DNA of 64,000 nt from Stenotrophomonas maltophilia (GTDB lineage: Bacteria > Pseudomonadota > Gammaproteobacteria > Xanthomonadales > Xanthomonadaceae). Shown here piece by piece: positions 90-51,407 of this stretch (positions within the stretch are counted from its first letter, which is position 1; each line of letters begins with the position of its first letter). Location: the NCBI RefSeq assembly GCF_004920835.1, contig NZ_QFHO01000023.1, positions 1-64,000 on the forward strand. The letters run 5' to 3'. The translations under genes were made by a program, and so were the position numbers. A model generated the notes under the pieces. It was not told the DNA's origin. It worked only from the letters and a program-made list of their open reading frames with translations, and ran no database searches.

Positions 90-128
90 GGGTCAGATCC
101 GTTTTCCACAGGAAAACGGATCTGACCC
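90..128. repeat. GGGTCAGA-type hairpin, copy 1
   Basis: Perfect inverted repeat with 18-bp arms and a 3-nt loop (aca), starting GGGTCAGATCC and ending GGATCTGACCC. It is the first of about eleven intergenic hairpins in the window sharing these arm ends. It lies in the long non-coding stretch before pgk. Confidence 0.85.
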
Positions 129-200
129 CTTCTTTTTCCAACCGACATCAGAAACCGCTTCTGCTTTTGCCATCCGCTCCGCCTCATGAACCTTTCGAGG

Positions 201-460
201 CCAGGGTGGTGTGGGCTGGCAGGGGTGTGAGCGGCATGGGCCCGAGGCATGCCTCGGGCGGGTTGGGCAGGACGCCCAACCCCGGTCTTGCCGTGTGCAC
301 AGGACAGCGCACAGGAGCAAGCGGCGACCAAGCCCCCATGGATGGGTTTACGGCGTCGCCTGCCAGCCCACACCACCCCGGCTCATCCACAGCACCACGA
401 AGCGCCAGCGCTTTGGCTTCGGCCGTTGCTGTTGCTGTTGCTGTCGCTGTTGCTGTCGCC
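201..460. repeat. Composite intergenic repeat, copy A, with GTTGCT microsatellite
   Basis: A 23-bp arm at 201-223 pairs with 359-381 (22 of 23 positions). The loop carries further hairpins at about 240-259 and 260-283 and the motif catggatgggtttacggcg near 338-356, which recurs in the other copies. A GTTGCT/GTCGCT microsatellite follows at 425-460. The same order (inverted-repeat core, gtttacggcg motif, GTTGCY run) is seen near 9.6-10.1 kb and 24.3-24.6 kb. Apart from the hairpin at 90-128 I see no gene in 1-565; open frames here are repeat-derived. Confidence 0.7.
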
Positions 461-5336: not shown

Positions 5337-6482
5337 ATGCGTTTGGCAGCAATCACAGTGGCCGTTGCCACGGTCCTGATCGCCGGCGGTTGCAACCGCA
5401 TCGGTGGCGGTGGTGACGCAGGCAAGGCCGCGTCTCTCGATTTCGACAAGCCGGTGTCCGGCGAAATCACCTCGCGCAGCGGCATCAACTTCAACGACGG
5501 CAGCCACCACCAGCTGTACCAGATCAAGCTGGAAGACAAGGACCTGGTCGGTCTGAAGTTGACCGGTGCACTGACCGGTTCGATCGCCGTGTTCAACAAC
5601 GGCAGCCTGGTATCCACCAGCAATACCGGCTACGAACGCGAAGGCGACGTCTCGCTGGCCTTCCGTGCAAACGGTGGCGGCACCTACCAGGTGGCGGTCA
5701 ACGCCGATGGCCCGAGCGCCTTCGGTCCGTATCGCCTGCGCGCCGAGAAGCTGAAGCCGTATGACGGCAAGCCGCTGGTGGGTAGCGGCGAGATCGCCGA
5801 CATGCTGGCCGGCAGCTCGCAGGACTACACCCTGCAGGTGGAGAAGGCAGGCCTGTACGAGATCCGCCTGGTGTCGGATGTGTTCGACCCGGTGCTGAAG
5901 CTGTCGGGCCAGGGCGTTGAGGCCGAGAATGATGATGGCAACGACAGCACCAACTCGCGCCTGACCCTGTCGCTGAAGCCGGGCAAGTACACCTTGACCG
6001 CGCGCGGTCTGGGCGACGGTGTCAATGGCATGTTTACCCTGTCTGCCAATCGCATCGAACTGCCGGGCAATCTGGTTGAACGCGATGGCACCGCCCTGCC
6101 GAAGTCGGGCAGTGTGTACACCATGCTCGACAACGATGGCCGCCGTCGTTTCCTGCTGACCCTGGACCGCCCGGCCGACGTGCGCCTGGATGCGATCTCC
6201 AGCCAGGTCGATACCGTGCTGCGCGTGGTCGGCGGTGATGTCGAGCTGACCGACGACGACGGTGGCAACGGTACCAATTCGCGCCTGGAGGAGACCTTGC
6301 CGGCCGGTCACTACACCATTGACGTGTCCAGCCTCAATAATGGCGCGGGCATGGTGGAAGTGCGCGTGCAGGTGGAGGGTGCCAGCGCCGACGGTGCTGC
6401 CGCCTCGGCCGCGCGTGCCGCTGCGGACGCTGCTGCCGCAGTGGCCGATGATGCCGCCGCAGTGGATGCCGCCAGCCGCTGA
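5337..6482 (+). CDS. Lipoprotein with three PPC-like repeats and an alanine-rich tail
   Basis: A 381-residue predicted lipoprotein. ATG at 5337 is preceded by AAGGAG. The first 19 residues form a signal peptide ending in the lipobox-like LIAGGC. Three beta-rich repeats of about 95-115 residues follow; the second and third each carry an acidic loop (NDDGNDSTNSRL and TDDDGGNGTNSRL), resembling bacterial pre-peptidase C-terminal (PPC) domains. The last 40 residues are almost all alanine, with scattered Asp and Arg. The protein is probably periplasmic or surface-exposed; no enzymatic domain is seen. It has its own gap and RBS and does not look co-transcribed with the aldolase gene. Confidence 0.75.
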   Translation: MRLAAITVAVATVLIAGGCNRIGGGGDAGKAASLDFDKPVSGEITSRSGINFNDGSHHQLYQIKLEDKDLVGLKLTGALTGSIAVFNNGSLVSTSNTGYEREGDVSLAFRANGGGTYQVAVNADGPSAFGPYRLRAEKLKPYDGKPLVGSGEIADMLAGSSQDYTLQVEKAGLYEIRLVSDVFDPVLKLSGQGVEAENDDGNDSTNSRLTLSLKPGKYTLTARGLGDGVNGMFTLSANRIELPGNLVERDGTALPKSGSVYTMLDNDGRRRFLLTLDRPADVRLDAISSQVDTVLRVVGGDVELTDDDGGNGTNSRLEETLPAGHYTIDVSSLNNGAGMVEVRVQVEGASADGAAASAARAAADAAAAVADDAAAVDAASR

Positions 6483-6546
6483 CATCGCTCCATGCGGTGC
6501 ATGGATGGGTAGATCCAAGCGACGCGTGGATGGAAGCAGTCGCACA

Positions 6547-6581
6547 ACAGAAAAGGCCGGGCATCGCCCGGCCTTTTCTGT
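6547..6581. terminator. Bidirectional terminator between convergent genes
   Basis: Stem ACAGAAAAGGCCGGGC/GCCCGGCCTTTTCTGT with a 3-nt loop. The A-run on one side and T-run on the other let it stop transcription from the lipoprotein gene and from the macrodomain gene. A weak GTAG hairpin lies just before it at about 6509-6533. Confidence 0.85.
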
Positions 6582-6599
6582 TCCAACCACGTCAGCCGT

Positions 6600-7199
6600 T
6601 CAATGCGCGGCTGCAAATCCGGTATCGCCCAATGGCGGCAGCATCGAGCTGCGCGGCTCGTTGTCCGCGTTCTGTCCGGCAGCGGTCAGCGCCTGCTGGT
6701 AAGCCTTGGCGGTAGCGGTATTGAACGCCACCAGCACGATGCGCATCGGCTGTGCATGGCTGCGCTGCCATGCCAGCGTTTCGGTCACTGCGATCTGCGC
6801 GGCCTGGTACAGCGGGTAGCCGTACACGCCGCAGCTGATCGCCGGGAAAGCGATCGATGTCACTCCCAGCGATTCGGCCAGCTGCAGGGATTTCCAGTAG
6901 CAGTTGGCCAGCAGCGCCGGTTCGTCGCGTTGACCGTCGTGCCAGACCGGGCCGACCGTATGCAGCACATGCCGCGCAGGTAACGCATGGGCGTCGGTGG
7001 CACGCACTTCGCCGGTCGGGCAGCGCACACCGGGCCGCAGTTCCGGCAGCTGTTCGCATTCGGCCAGCAGCGCTGGGCCTGCGGCGCGATGGATCGCACC
7101 GTCGACACCGCCACCGCCGAGCAGTGTTTCATTGGCCGCGTTGACGATCGCATCCACCGCCAGGGTCGTGATGTCGCCCTGCCAAACTTCGATCTTCAT
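6600..7199 (-). CDS. Macrodomain O-acetyl-ADP-ribose deacetylase
   Basis: A 199-residue single-domain macro protein of the YmdB/AF1521 type, which hydrolyses O-acetyl-ADP-ribose or related ADP-ribose esters. The ADP-ribose-binding signature is clear: GDIT near the start, then VDAIVNAAN, the [12 protein letters not shown] loop, and the [15 protein letters not shown] segment. The start is the ATG at 7199 (MKIEVWQGD), with AGGAGACGG upstream; a longer upstream frame lacks such support. The last 25 residues (after AAGQNAD) extend past the usual fold. It is monocistronic, facing a terminator. Confidence 0.92.
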
Positions 7200-7364: not shown

Positions 7365-7405
7365 GGGGTCAGAGCCTTTTTCCGCACGGAAAATGCTCTG
7401 ACCCC
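7365..7405. repeat. GGGTCAGA-type hairpin, copy 3
   Basis: Inverted repeat starting GGGGTCAGAGC and ending GCTCTGACCCC, with a loop around ccgcacgg. It is the first of two such hairpins in the gap between the macrodomain gene and cysK. Confidence 0.8.
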
Positions 7406-7429: not shown

Positions 7430-7468
7430 GGGTCAGAGCCCTTTCCCTGCAGGAAAGGGATCCGACCC
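7430..7468. repeat. GGGTCAGA-type hairpin, copy 4
   Basis: Arms GGGTCAGAGCCCTTTCC and GGAAAGGGATCCGACCC, immediately downstream of the cysK stop (minus strand). It may serve as its transcript end. Confidence 0.8.
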
Positions 7469-7474
7469 GATGCA

Positions 7475-9635: not shown

Positions 9636-9900
9636 GCAGGGCTGCGCCCTGCACCTGCTGCAAACCGGAGCAACAGCAACAGCAACGTCAAAAGCTCGCT
9701 ATCCGTGGGATGGCGGGGCGGTGTCGGACTGCGGGGACGCCGTGAACCCGTCCCTGGGGGCCTGGCCGCGGCATCCATGCCGCGGACACCCCGCACTCCG
9801 ACACCGCCCCACCTCTGACAGATTCCGATGGCTGTTGGTAGGTGTCGACCTTGGTCGACACGGTAGATCCACGCCATGCGTGGATGGAAACTGTCAGATA
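9636..9900. repeat. Composite intergenic repeat, copy B (reverse orientation)
   Basis: Read from the minus strand it has the order seen in copies C and D. First comes a GTGTCGACC/GGTCGACAC hairpin (9842-9861), then an ~22-bp arm at 9789-9810 pairing with 9715-9736 (21 of 22). Between the arms is ggtgtccgcggcatggatgccgcgg and a gttcacggcgtcc motif. A GTTGCT run (9671-9686) and a GCAGGGCGCAGCCCTGC hairpin (9636-9652) follow. A GTAGATCCACGCCATGCGTGGAT hairpin is appended at 9863-9885. No gene lies in 9626-10197. Confidence 0.75.
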
Positions 9901-9913
9901 TCGAAATACATGT

Positions 9914-10133
9914 GGGGTCAGATCCGTTCCAACAGACCGCAGGAATCTGTCGAAGGCGGGGTGGGTCCGGTTGCGGGGGCGTGAGCGCCATGGATGGCGC
10001 GACCGAGCCTCCATGGACGGATTTACGGCGTCCCCCGCAACCGGACCCACCCCGCCATCCCTCAGGAAACCAGCTTCTGCTGTTGCTTCGGCACCTGCCG
10101 TGGCCTCTGCGGGTGCAGGGCGCAGCCCTGCCG
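9914..10133. repeat. Composite intergenic repeat, copy C
   Basis: Begins with a degenerate ggggtcagatccg segment and ggaatctgtcgaa. It continues with perfect 25-bp arms at 9955-9979 and 10032-10056 around gcgccatggatggcgc and catggacggatttacggcg, then a short tgctgttgct run and a GGGTGCAGGGCGCAGCCCTGCC hairpin (10111-10132). It lies head to head with copy B, so the two form a large inverted arrangement between cysB and the copper genes. Confidence 0.75.
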
Positions 10134-17274: not shown

Positions 17275-17863
17275 CCTGACCACCAACGGGATGGCTGGCG
17301 GGGTCGGATCCCTTTCCCAAAGGGAAAGGGCTCTGACCCCACACCTGCAGGGCGAGGGCTTCCTCCTGCGCCCTTGGCGCAATGAAGACCTCGAATCGCT
17401 GCTGCGCCATGCCAACGATGCCGAGGTATCGCGGGGTCTGCGTGATCGTTTCCCGTACCCGTACACGCGCGAAGATGGCGAGGCTTTCCTGGCTGGCCGC
17501 GTGCTGGCACCGGGCACGCTCAACCTGGCCATCGAGATCGACGGCCAGGCCTGCGGGAGCGTCGGTGCCCAGCAGGGCATCGCCGAGCGTGGTCACATGG
17601 CGGAACTGGGCTACTGGCTGGGCCAGTCCTACTGGGGCCAGGGCCTGATGACCCGGGTGGTCGGCCTGTTCGCACCGTGGGTGATGGACGAACTGCGCCT
17701 GTTCAGGCTGCAGGCCGGGGTGGTCGACTTCAACCTCGGTTCGGCCCGGGTGCTGGAAAAGAACGGCTTCCAGGAAGAGGGCGTGGACCGCTGCGCGGTC
17801 TACAAGCGCGGCGTGCTGCACGACCTGCGCCGCTTCGCCCGGGTGCGCACGCAGCTTCCGTAA
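17267..17863 (+). CDS. GNAT-family N-acetyltransferase with repeat-derived N-terminus
   Basis: A 198-residue acetyl-CoA-dependent N-acetyltransferase of the RimJ/RimL type. The core starts at GFLLRPWRNEDLESLL, contains GYWLGQSYWGQGLMT (the acetyl-CoA-binding loop) and ends with NLGSARVLEKNGFQEEG. ATG 17267 overlaps the RND stop. Residues about 12-25 (GGVGSLSQRERALT) are encoded by a complete GGGTCAGA-type hairpin lying in frame, and no ATG occurs between it and the conserved domain. Either the repeat is translated or translation starts at a rare codon after it. The substrate is unknown. Confidence 0.82.
   Translation: MPDLTTNGMAGGVGSLSQRERALTPHLQGEGFLLRPWRNEDLESLLRHANDAEVSRGLRDRFPYPYTREDGEAFLAGRVLAPGTLNLAIEIDGQACGSVGAQQGIAERGHMAELGYWLGQSYWGQGLMTRVVGLFAPWVMDELRLFRLQAGVVDFNLGSARVLEKNGFQEEGVDRCAVYKRGVLHDLRRFARVRTQLP
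17300..17340. repeat. GGGTCAGA-type hairpin, copy 5, inside a coding region
   Basis: GGGGTCGGATCCCTTTCCC and GGGAAAGGGCTCTGACCCC form an almost perfect hairpin. It is a family member like those between genes, but it falls within the first 25 codons of the acetyltransferase and is open in that frame. Confidence 0.85.
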
Positions 17864-24280: not shown

Positions 24281-24620
<340 letters not shown>

Positions 24621-35648: not shown

Positions 35649-36125
35649 ATGTACCGCATCACGATGATCGCGTTGTTGCTGGGGCTGTCCGGCGCGGCTG
35701 CCGCCAAGCCGGAAAAGACCGCCCTACAGATGGACCGGCAGGCGCCGGTGGCCGGACAGATCCGCCAGGTGGAGGCAGCCCTGGCCACTCCTGAATACGC
35801 CGAGTTGTCCAATGAGGACCGCAGCCGCGTGCAGCAGTCACTGGAACGGATCCGCTCGCGGATGGGCGAACGCCAGACCGTGCAGGAGCTGCCACCGCAG
35901 GAGCAGGCCGACGTCTTCAACGAGCAGGAGCGGATCAATACCCTGCTGACCCGTGGCCATGACGACAGCCGCCAGATCTGCACCTACCAGCGCACCACCG
36001 GCAGCAACATGCCCAAGGGGCGCTGCCTGACCGTGGCCGAGCGGCGCCGTATCGAGGAAAAGGGCAAGGCCCTGATCAACGACCAGCGCAGCTACAGCAA
36101 CCTCGTTCCGCCTTCCGGGCGCTGA
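35649..36125 (+). CDS. Small periplasmic protein, paralogue 1 of 3
   Basis: A 158-residue protein with a signal peptide ending SGAAAAKP. The mature part is mostly helical and charged. It carries the family's core: a VAGQIRQVEAAL-like helix, NEDRSRVQQSLERI, and near the end ICTYQRTTGSNMPKGRCLTVAERRR, with a conserved pair of cysteines around TGSNMP. That C-terminal block recurs in many small exported Xanthomonadaceae proteins of unknown role. It is the most divergent of the three tandem copies. The start MYRITM is chosen over an upstream ATG eighteen bases earlier because it fits the signal peptide. Confidence 0.8.
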   Translation: MYRITMIALLLGLSGAAAAKPEKTALQMDRQAPVAGQIRQVEAALATPEYAELSNEDRSRVQQSLERIRSRMGERQTVQELPPQEQADVFNEQERINTLLTRGHDDSRQICTYQRTTGSNMPKGRCLTVAERRRIEEKGKALINDQRSYSNLVPPSGR

Positions 36126-36219
36126 TCCCCGTGTCCCACACCTGCCTTGCGCTGCGCATGGCCGCATCGACAGATTCCCGTTTCTAGCCGTTCAATCATG
36201 GACGAACATGGAGGTAGTG

Positions 36220-36690
36220 ATGCAACGCATGACCCCGATTGCCCTGATGGTGTGCCTGGGCCTGGCCGCAACGGCGCAGGCGAAGCCAGAAAAGAGTGAA
36301 GTGAAGTTCGACGCCAAGGCGCCGGTGGCCGAGCAGATCCAGGCCGTCGAAAAGGCGATCAGCTCCGAGAACTACAGCGAGATCGGCCTGGAGGACAAGA
36401 GCCGGGTGCAGCAGGCGCTGGGCCGGATCAAGCTGGCGGTGGGTGACCACCAGAACGTGGAGCAGCTCAGCCCGCACGACCAGACCCAGGTCTTCAACGA
36501 CCAGGAAGTGATCAATACGATCATGACCCGCGCCCACGCCGACAGCCGCATGGTCTGCCGTCGCGAGCGCAGCACCGGCAGCAACATGCCGCAGAGTGTC
36601 TGCCTGACCGTGGCGCAACGCCGCAAGGCGCAGGAAGAAAGCCGCAAGGCGCTCAACGACACTCAGCGCTTCAACAACTACAAGCCCTGA
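36220..36690 (+). CDS. Small periplasmic protein, paralogue 2 of 3
   Basis: A 156-residue exported protein closely related to the next gene. The start at 36220 (MQRMTPIAL) follows GGAGG. The signal peptide ends TAQAKPE. The shared blocks are APVAEQIQAVEKAI, NYSEIGLEDKSRVQQALGRI, then QVFNDQEVINTIMTRAHADS, and the C-terminal CRRERSTGSNMPQSVCLTVAQRRKAQEE with its cysteine pair (quoted in parts). Function unknown. Helical and charged, it may bind a partner in the periplasm. Confidence 0.82.
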   Translation: MQRMTPIALMVCLGLAATAQAKPEKSEVKFDAKAPVAEQIQAVEKAISSENYSEIGLEDKSRVQQALGRIKLAVGDHQNVEQLSPHDQTQVFNDQEVINTIMTRAHADSRMVCRRERSTGSNMPQSVCLTVAQRRKAQEESRKALNDTQRFNNYKP

Positions 36691-36792
36691 TCGCAAGGCA
36701 TCGCCAACGGTCACCCTGCCGAGCGTCCCTTGTGGGCGCATCGGCGGAGTCGTAAAGTTGGTCCCCATTCATGGAAGAACCTGGAGTGCGTT

Positions 36793-37254
36793 ATGTACCG
36801 CAAGACCACGCTGGCCCTGATGCTGTCGCTGGGCCTGGTTGCCACTGTGCACGCCAAGGCCGAGAAGCAAGGCGTTCGGATGGACGGCGGCGCACCGGTG
36901 GCCGAGCAGATCCGCCGCGTTGAAGCGGCCATCGGCAGCGAGGACTACAGCGAGATCGGGCTGGAGGACAAGAGCCGGGTGCAGCAGGCACTGAACCGCA
37001 TCAAGATCAAGATGAATGGCCGCGAGAAGGTTGATGAGCTTGCGCCGCAGGAGCGTAACGACGTCTTCAACGAGCAGGAGATCGTCAACACGATAATGAC
37101 CCGTGCCCATGCCGACAGCCGCATGATCTGCCGCCGCGAGCGCCTGACCGGCAGCAACATGCCGCAGAGCGTCTGCCTGACCGTGGCCCAGCGCCGCAAG
37201 GCCCAGGAAGAAAGCCGCCGCGCGATGACCGACCAGCAGCGGATGAGCCGCTGA
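36793..37254 (+). CDS. Small periplasmic protein, paralogue 3 of 3
   Basis: A 153-residue exported protein. Start MYRKTT at 36793 has GGAG upstream. The signal peptide ends TVHAKAE. It shares SEDYSEIGLEDKSRVQQAL, the NEQEIVNTIMTRAHADSR block and SNMPQSVCLTVAQRRKAQEE almost residue for residue with paralogue 2, so the pair is the younger duplication. It is the last gene before the two-component system on the same strand, 166 bp away. Confidence 0.82.
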   Translation: MYRKTTLALMLSLGLVATVHAKAEKQGVRMDGGAPVAEQIRRVEAAIGSEDYSEIGLEDKSRVQQALNRIKIKMNGREKVDELAPQERNDVFNEQEIVNTIMTRAHADSRMICRRERLTGSNMPQSVCLTVAQRRKAQEESRRAMTDQQRMSR

Positions 37255-51366: not shown

Positions 51367-51407
51367 GGGGTCAGATCCATTTTGCTGCGCAAAAGGGATC
51401 TGACCCC
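51367..51407. repeat. GGGTCAGA-type hairpin, copy 11, at the nadE promoter
   Basis: GGGGTCAGATCC...GGGATCTGACCCC, ending six bases before the nadE -10 box, so it covers the position of the -35 element. Confidence 0.75.

Follow-up and report, generated by a model that had tools for sequence, protein, structure and literature searches.

An RNA-like core with two predicted CsrA/RsmA-binding hairpins in a dispersed palindromic repeat of Stenotrophomonas maltophilia

In Stenotrophomonas maltophilia, two copies of a composite intergenic repeat face each other within a 64,000-nt stretch of contig NZ_QFHO01000023.1 (hereafter the window), and we asked what kind of element they represent. The initial annotation listed four copies, B (reverse strand), C, D and a diverged copy A, and suggested from their fixed modular order a unit that moves or amplifies as a whole. 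All four lie where it placed them and present arm, core and arm in one order; what is conserved, and what this reading had missed, is a core resembling an RNA, with two CsrA-type hairpins. It appears reasonably probable to us that the repeat represents, at the DNA level, a dispersed structured RNA, which we infer to be transcribed and bound, with two predicted CsrA/RsmA sites and a stem of a size suited to RNase III.

Anatomy, copy number and distribution of the repeat

The invariant unit comprises a long 5′ arm, a 50-nt core and a long 3′ arm. Its span is identical in 31 of the first 34 copies, and the other three, copy A among them, contain 79 extra nt in hairpin 1. The corresponding features of the window are given below; the outer arm ends of B and C were set by reading of the sequence.

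201–381, plus strand: copy A, arm-core-arm, with 79 additional nt in hairpin 1; hairpin 2 (CATGGATG, 337–344) is intact
9636–9654, minus strand: terminal hairpin module of B
9712–9818, minus strand: copy B, arm-core-arm (core 9738–9787), opposing C head to head
9720–9805, minus strand: match of copy B to covariance model R1 (E 1.6e-14)
9749–9756, minus strand: hairpin 2 loop of B, CAGGGACG, differing from that of C at one N position only
9772–9779, minus strand: hairpin 1 loop of B, CATGGATG, from the sequence
9837–9886, plus strand: B–C spacer with two GTAG-type REPs (GGTAGGTGTCGACC..., GGTAGATCCACGCC...) outside the unit, from the sequence and the REP table of PMC2817692
9955–10056, plus strand: copy C, arm-core-arm (5′ arm 9955–9980, core 9981–10030, 3′ arm 10031–10056)
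9963–10048, plus strand: match of copy C to R1 (E 8.5e-17)
9989–9996, plus strand: hairpin 1 loop and closing pair of C, CATGGATG, fitting CANGGANG, from the sequence and invariant alignment columns
10012–10019, plus strand: hairpin 2 loop and closing pair of C, CATGGACG, fitting CANGGANG, from the sequence
10113–10131, plus strand: terminal hairpin module of C
24351–24527, plus strand: copy D, arm-core-arm; hairpin 2 contains a long insert and has lost its GGA loop to it, from sequence and fold
24385–24392, plus strand: hairpin 1 of D, CATGGATG, intact
24600–24618, plus strand: terminal hairpin module of D, with 1 mismatch

Copy B has a LysR-type regulator gene beside it and C precedes a DUF2946 gene; D is flanked by Rieske and citrate-transporter genes, and A precedes pgk. 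In a repeat search of the window, B and C formed an inverted pair of 146 nt (71% identity), with D related to both. The fold of copy C (z −6.98) lies ∼7 standard deviations below its own dinucleotide shuffles. Long hairpin inserts recur in hairpin 2 or hairpin 1, at varying places and in different strains (D, 24406–24490; A; and loci L133, L137, L017, L021 and L146). A second palindromic intergenic family of ∼40 nt (GGGTCAGATCC...GGATCTGACCCC) is found at window positions 90–129, 7366–7405, 7430–7469, 17301–17340 and 51368–51407 and also in the spacers of some element pairs, and three direct repeats (234 nt, 73%, spacing ∼575) run over called genes at 35814–37197.

The four annotated copies turned out to be part of a far larger set. 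Covariance model R1, trained on 31 copies from the same genome (4.56 Mb, 81 contigs) using an alignment with 18-nt arms, scored at most 150 candidates and returned 103 matches in it at E ≤ 0.01, of which 98 reach E ≤ 3.9e-9; a search with the core motif found 120 matches with up to two mismatches, while the reversed pattern, used as a control, gave 36. Pairs and neighboring genes were counted on 104 copies, namely 101 of the 103 R1 matches (two weak ones were dropped and three weak ones retained) together with A, D and one minus-strand copy from the motif search. There are 25 close pairs within 1 kb, all 25 of which are head to head with starts 222–333 bp apart. The single copies (54 of 104) include several near contig starts, whose partners were probably lost to the contig cut.

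Other arrangements were found in other genomes. Locus L077 (group g18) contains tandem arrays of head-to-head pairs, in which the minus-strand partner, in our reading, has the sequence UACAAGGACGUA. In contrast to the pairs of our genome, six minus-strand copies at G632:C1:94427–95649 are arranged head to tail with a spacing of ∼227 bp. One genome, G082, harbors at least 26 copies with an identical score; 19 fetched copies are identical over 86 nt and one more is nearly so, and the 19 share a long-armed upstream partner on the opposite strand, with a CATGGATG hairpin. The structure upstream of the element in these loci (L235–L254) is a different long-armed one, placed head to head, with the CATGGATG hairpin and a ACAGGAGG stretch on one strand.

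Matches are present in 54 of 198 genomes of the family. Of the 229 class genomes sampled, 40 have matches, our own included; the 39 others are spread across 33 further families (the weakest matches being uninspected), and five genomes of the class have at least 19 matches each. A wider model, R2, matched 33 of 398 genomes of the phylum, all 33 from the same class, the number sampled outside that class not being given. We directly read 23 class stretches, two or three of them imperfect, and 24 phylum-locus matches. Copy C has no blastn match in the plasmid and phage collections searched. One record titled Bacillus subtilis (L161, JAHREJ010000025.1) contains a Stenotrophomonas-like LysR locus, and its assembly is probably contaminated or misnamed.

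Covarying arms, GGA loops and the strand under selection

The arms vary between copies yet remain complementary. Among the 31 copies of our genome, 96.9% of cells are paired and 24 of 30 pairs have changed on both sides, with a covariation score of 0.640 compared with 0.166 after shuffling (0 of 500 shuffles reach it). The corresponding values for 52 copies from three phylogenetic depths are 26 of 30 pairs and 0.827 versus 0.181 (0 of 500), the best score being obtained at slide 0. This alignment (A4) holds 16 class, 26 family and 10 own copies out of 244, with most of the G082 run excluded. Its rows were chosen by paired arms, inner stems and distinct arms, ignoring the loops; since pairing was a criterion of choice, the percentage paired follows in part from the selection, and it is the compensatory changes that constitute evidence. 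Of 126 matches anchored solely on the loop of hairpin 1 and on the 3′ motif, 119 pair at 10 or more of the 17 arm positions, 73 of them at all 17; by our reading, the remaining seven comprise five with a 51-nt core, one with an arm out of register and one chance match.

For the 52-copy alignment, RNAalifold and the pair counts both yield a three-way junction, formed by P1 (1–17/70–86), P2 (18–19/42–43 and 21–27/34–40) and P3 (45–47/65–67 and 48–50/57–59, with a five-base bulge). An inner pairing of 18–20 with 63–65 was dropped in favor of 45–47 with 65–67 on the wider alignment. P1 extends to at least 22 bp in 87 of 88 own, 121 of 124 family and 26 of 31 class copies. Mean identity in the class set is 36% for the arms and 75% for the cores.

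The longer SELEX form of the CsrA/RsmA site is RUACARGGAUGU. In the 52-copy alignment both hairpins have the invariant loop columns C,A,.,G,G,A,.,G, that is CANGGANG, and P2 and P3 each present an ANGGAN hexaloop closed by a C-G pair, with the two GGA motifs 23 nt apart. Hairpin 1 and hairpin 2 each fit CANGGANG in 240 of 243 distinct copies selected blind to the loops. All four bases occur at both N positions of hairpin 2; in hairpin 1, 26 copies depart from CATGGATG, 23 of them at N positions only, with CAGGGATG, CATGGACG and CAGGGAGG as variants in other families. In our genome hairpin 1 reads CATGGATG in 86 of 88 copies and lacks GGA in the remaining two, and the second GGA loop is missing from copy D. 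CsrA does not account for the conserved TT(T/C)ACGGCG on the 3′ side of the core or for a GAG linker. Published binding motifs are the Rsm consensus 5′-A/U-CANGGANG-U/A (PMC6849547) and the RsmA motif ACARGGAUG (PMC3937308).

Our genome has one csrA gene. Outside the family we searched 62 of 68 element-bearing genomes (six, mostly weak, were omitted) and found csrA in 58, including 53 of 54 good ones, a count that has no baseline. Because CsrA is so common in the class, this co-occurrence says little.

RNA pairing on one strand tolerates G-U but not A-C, whereas the two are equivalent in double-stranded DNA. The arm pairs are nearly all Watson-Crick and mismatches are few. Read on the GGA strand, distinct mismatches amount to 67 G-U versus 19 A-C (p 2e-7; inner 17 arm pairs). 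The ratio is 41:7 in the family set with orthologues, 11:1 in the class and 15:11 in our own genome, the last not being significant taken alone. The ratio is 67:17 when each genome and column is counted once; with a single vote per genome, 30 favor G-U and 3 favor A-C, with 3 ties (87 genomes or loci represented). As a control, 315 REP-like hairpins from the same loci yielded 70:65, a noisy comparison with 281 other mismatches. This one-strand excess, absent from the REP-like hairpins, makes it seem that the structure is under selection in RNA of the GGA strand, although our genome alone would be no proof. The same test may help to separate RNA elements from DNA palindromes elsewhere.

Outer modules, mobility and gene context

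The initial annotation treated all modules as one unit. Simple regular expressions applied to the 96 own copies with enough flank detected the ..CTGTCgaa.. block in 61, the hexamer run in 64, the terminal hairpin in 61 and all three in 43, and the outer modules are thus optional. Of 49 genome matches to the terminal hairpin, 41 lie no more than 150 bp 3′ of an element and share its orientation, and four of the eight others are at contig ends. The GTCGACC hairpin was not borne out as a module, being an ordinary GTAG-type REP outside the unit. Together with its neighbor in the B–C spacer it has the GT(A/G)G head and palindrome of Stenotrophomonas REPs tabulated in PMC2817692; the neighbor is nearly identical to a REP listed there, the GTCGACC hairpin alike in kind. 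The element's own hairpins lack a GT(A/G)G head with a short fixed palindrome, and the REPs, which lie near many copies, adjoin it.

Orthologous sites differ in the presence of the element, as the suggestion of a mobile unit had envisaged, and partial losses have differing junctions. At the B/C site R1 copies were found in 14 of the first 19 loci (L130–L148, S. maltophilia group) and in six Xanthomonas loci, among 80. Among the loci listed, B is lost but C retained in L130 and L134, with different junctions, both are lost in L145, and the arm type of B differs between strains; such swaps fit gene conversion as well as transposition. In L135 (P. hibiscicola ATCC 19867, ∼5390–6800) two transposase-like ORFs of 183 and 280 amino acids, IS3-like by our reading, start within hairpin 2 of copy C and are followed by Ns, with a complete copy at 7090. 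At the D site R1 matched in five of 30 loci, our own copy carrying an insert; among those listed, the element is plainly absent from L281, L284, L286, L287, L288, L291 and L300, while L282 and L283 contain the end hairpin only, and some of the remaining loci have other neighbors. By-eye reading of these presence/absence sites revealed no target-site duplication. The annotation had further advised looking for a linked REP-associated tyrosine transposase (RAYT). The genome has three Y1 transposase matches, each at least 5.7 kb from any copy found. Taken together, the constant order, the recurrent pair, the arrays, the amplification in G082 and the presence/absence at orthologous sites speak for a unit that moves or amplifies whole. 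Given the frequent lack of outer modules, the loss of B alone, the differing junctions, and that neither a duplication was noticed by eye nor a RAYT seen next to any copy found, this idea is partly supported.

These data bear on the alternative that the repeat is a REP/BIME/MITE-type DNA palindrome, in which a Y1 (RAYT-like) or another transposase would copy the hairpin as single-stranded DNA and the CsrA-like loops would be coincidental. Its dispersed intergenic location, head-to-head pairs, tandem arrays, nearby GTAG-like REPs and recent amplification in G082, the three Y1 matches and the nearly complete Watson-Crick pairing of the arms would all be expected of such an element. We nevertheless regard this alternative as rather unlikely, as it leaves unexplained the G-U over A-C bias on one strand, which REP-like hairpins of the same loci lack, and CANGGANG with free N in both loops throughout the class, while the element's hairpins have no GTAG head and the nearest Y1 match is 5.7 kb from a copy found. 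The structured RNA that we favor would probably have spread by a separate DNA route, together with REPs.

The swap of arm types at one site between strains and the few mismatches are also what a neutral, functionless palindrome would display if template-switch correction or gene conversion preserved the complementarity of its arms. This we consider highly improbable, since the core retains 75% mean identity across the class while the arms drop to 36%, and the G-U pairs are strand-biased.

None of 79 own units overlaps a called gene. For 38 single copies with both neighbors, 17 are between convergent genes, 11 are antisense to both, 9 sense and 1 between divergent genes, and the neighbors of 22 pairs are oriented −− (9), +− (6), ++ (4) and −+ (3). 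The 55 gene pairs of the window are 25 ++, 15 −−, 8 +− and 7 −+. The element thus sits at gene ends with no sense preference; a rough count outside our genome gave 17 antisense versus 6 sense, and in the flank-gene count outside the genus 60 copies inside called ORFs were dropped. A sense terminator follows the element in 2 of 82, 4 of 118 and 3 of 29 copies, whereas a sense terminator precedes it in 15 of 82, 22 of 118 and 3 of 29, where it would stop read-through. No promoter was claimed from by-eye reading of 17 flanks. The excess of single copies between convergent genes (17 of 38, compared with 8 of 55 window gene pairs) would suit an ordinary 3′-end element, that is a terminator or 3′ stabilizer. 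The element has no T-tract, however, terminators in its 3′ flank are more often antisense (28 of 229) than sense (9 of 229), and two conserved loops are unnecessary for such a role, which makes this explanation distinctly improbable in our view.

In the structured-RNA reading, RNA of the GGA strand would fold into a long P1 stem, usually of at least 22 bp and conserved in pairing but free in sequence, closing a three-way junction in which P2 and P3 would display CsrA/RsmA docking loops. The cell's single CsrA/RsmA would then probably bind each transcribed copy, which would act as a decoy, or as a local control or stability site, and the sequence-free stem would be suited to cutting by RNase III. 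A head-to-head pair would offer one GGA-strand copy in either direction of transcription. Against this reading count the absence of sense bias, the few terminators of its own, the upstream terminators and an Rfam family, Ysr224, on the opposite strand.

Comparison with known RNAs and repeats

Within the portion covered, literature on CsrA together with REPs, covariation or repeats, and on palindromes of Stenotrophomonas or Xanthomonas, contained no account of the family; it included parts of PMC3733652, PMC2864571 and PMC3770706, as well as PMC2267715, where the terms sought are absent, with most subscription journals and the supplements outside its scope. At the gathering thresholds of Rfam release 15 nothing matched the window copies, the only hit in the window being a tRNA, and permissive thresholds yielded mostly generic microRNA hairpins and, below threshold, Ysr224. 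No match to the element was obtained at gathering thresholds in 20 class and family loci; of a further 20 loci, L364 gave a match to Ysr224, on the strand complementary to the element, and L354 one to TwoAYGGAY, adjacent to it. Matches to 5_ureB_sRNA lie ∼200 nt from the element in L355 (1016–1302) and L356 (1017–1303).

The consensus of Ysr224 (RF02770, Yersinia sRNA 224) is the reverse complement of our core, hairpins included, so that the core is already on record in Rfam as a Yersinia sRNA of the other strand, where it is modeled as a single sRNA with another structure. L364 passes its gathering score of 70 with 74.7 bits, while our copies B (31.7 bits) and C (27.9 bits) fail. The functional RNA could hence be the strand with CAUCCAUG loops: the Ysr224 model recognizes B, C and other copies on their complementary strand, and elements read in that orientation often follow closely behind a gene. 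We judge this unlikely, as the G-U bias has the opposite sign and we know of no protein motif in loops of the CAUCCAUG strand.

TwoAYGGAY (RF01731), which belongs to the Rfam clan of CsrA-binding RNAs, resembles the GGA-strand RNA proposed here in having two adjacent hairpins with CAUGGAUG-type loops, but its hairpins are placed side by side and it has neither the core nor the arm pattern of the element. Its match in L354 (1705–1762; 46.1 bits, gathering score 43) is 119 nt from the element, and B and C gave no match to it at E ≤ 5, falling short of that gathering score. TwoAYGGAY was graded as "probably" an RNA (Weinberg 2010).

GTAG REPs (SMAG), BIMEs and REPINs are likewise dispersed intergenic palindromes, often in opposed pairs and in the same spacers. 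The element differs from GTAG REPs, which are 20–40 bp long with a GT(A/G)G head and a family-specific stem sequence, and it has the G-U strand bias that REP-like hairpins at our loci lack. The NEMIS/Correia elements of Neisseria are also dispersed, and in mRNA RNase III cuts their long paired ends; their terminal repeats, however, are of fixed sequence, and to our knowledge they have no CsrA-type core.

We also considered whether the element could be RsmU, which is encoded in the 3′ UTR of comEA in X. campestris, and rejected this because no R1 match lies beside comEA in six g18 genomes taken for Xanthomonas. Among these six, R1 matches are confined to L308, >1.3 kb away, and RsmU is probably distinct from the element, as far as g18 represents Xanthomonas. 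A 2014 paper states that no RsmB homologue had been identified in Xanthomonas (PMC3937308), and RsmU was described in 2020 as an RsmA-sequestering sRNA of X. campestris whose loss changed none of the traits tested (PMC7694677). It is conceivable, if doubtful, that a class-wide dispersed RNA family in Gammaproteobacteria forms a distributed, copy-number-tunable CsrA/RsmA reservoir or a genomic parasite riding on CsrA, and that in Xanthomonadaceae, where no RsmB homologue was found, it does the work of the missing antagonist RNAs. If so, the ∼100 copies, each offering up to two sites, would be a direct candidate for RsmA control, a group of class-wide intergenic palindromes would gain a function and be united with the orphan Ysr224, and "junk" palindromes may belong to the CsrA/RsmA circuit.

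RNAs of the CsrB, RsmX/Y/Z and RsmU type come from one or a few genes per genome, whereas the element is dispersed in ∼100 copies. What they have in common is the GGA motif in hairpin loops, as described for these sRNAs in PMC7694677 and PMC3937308.
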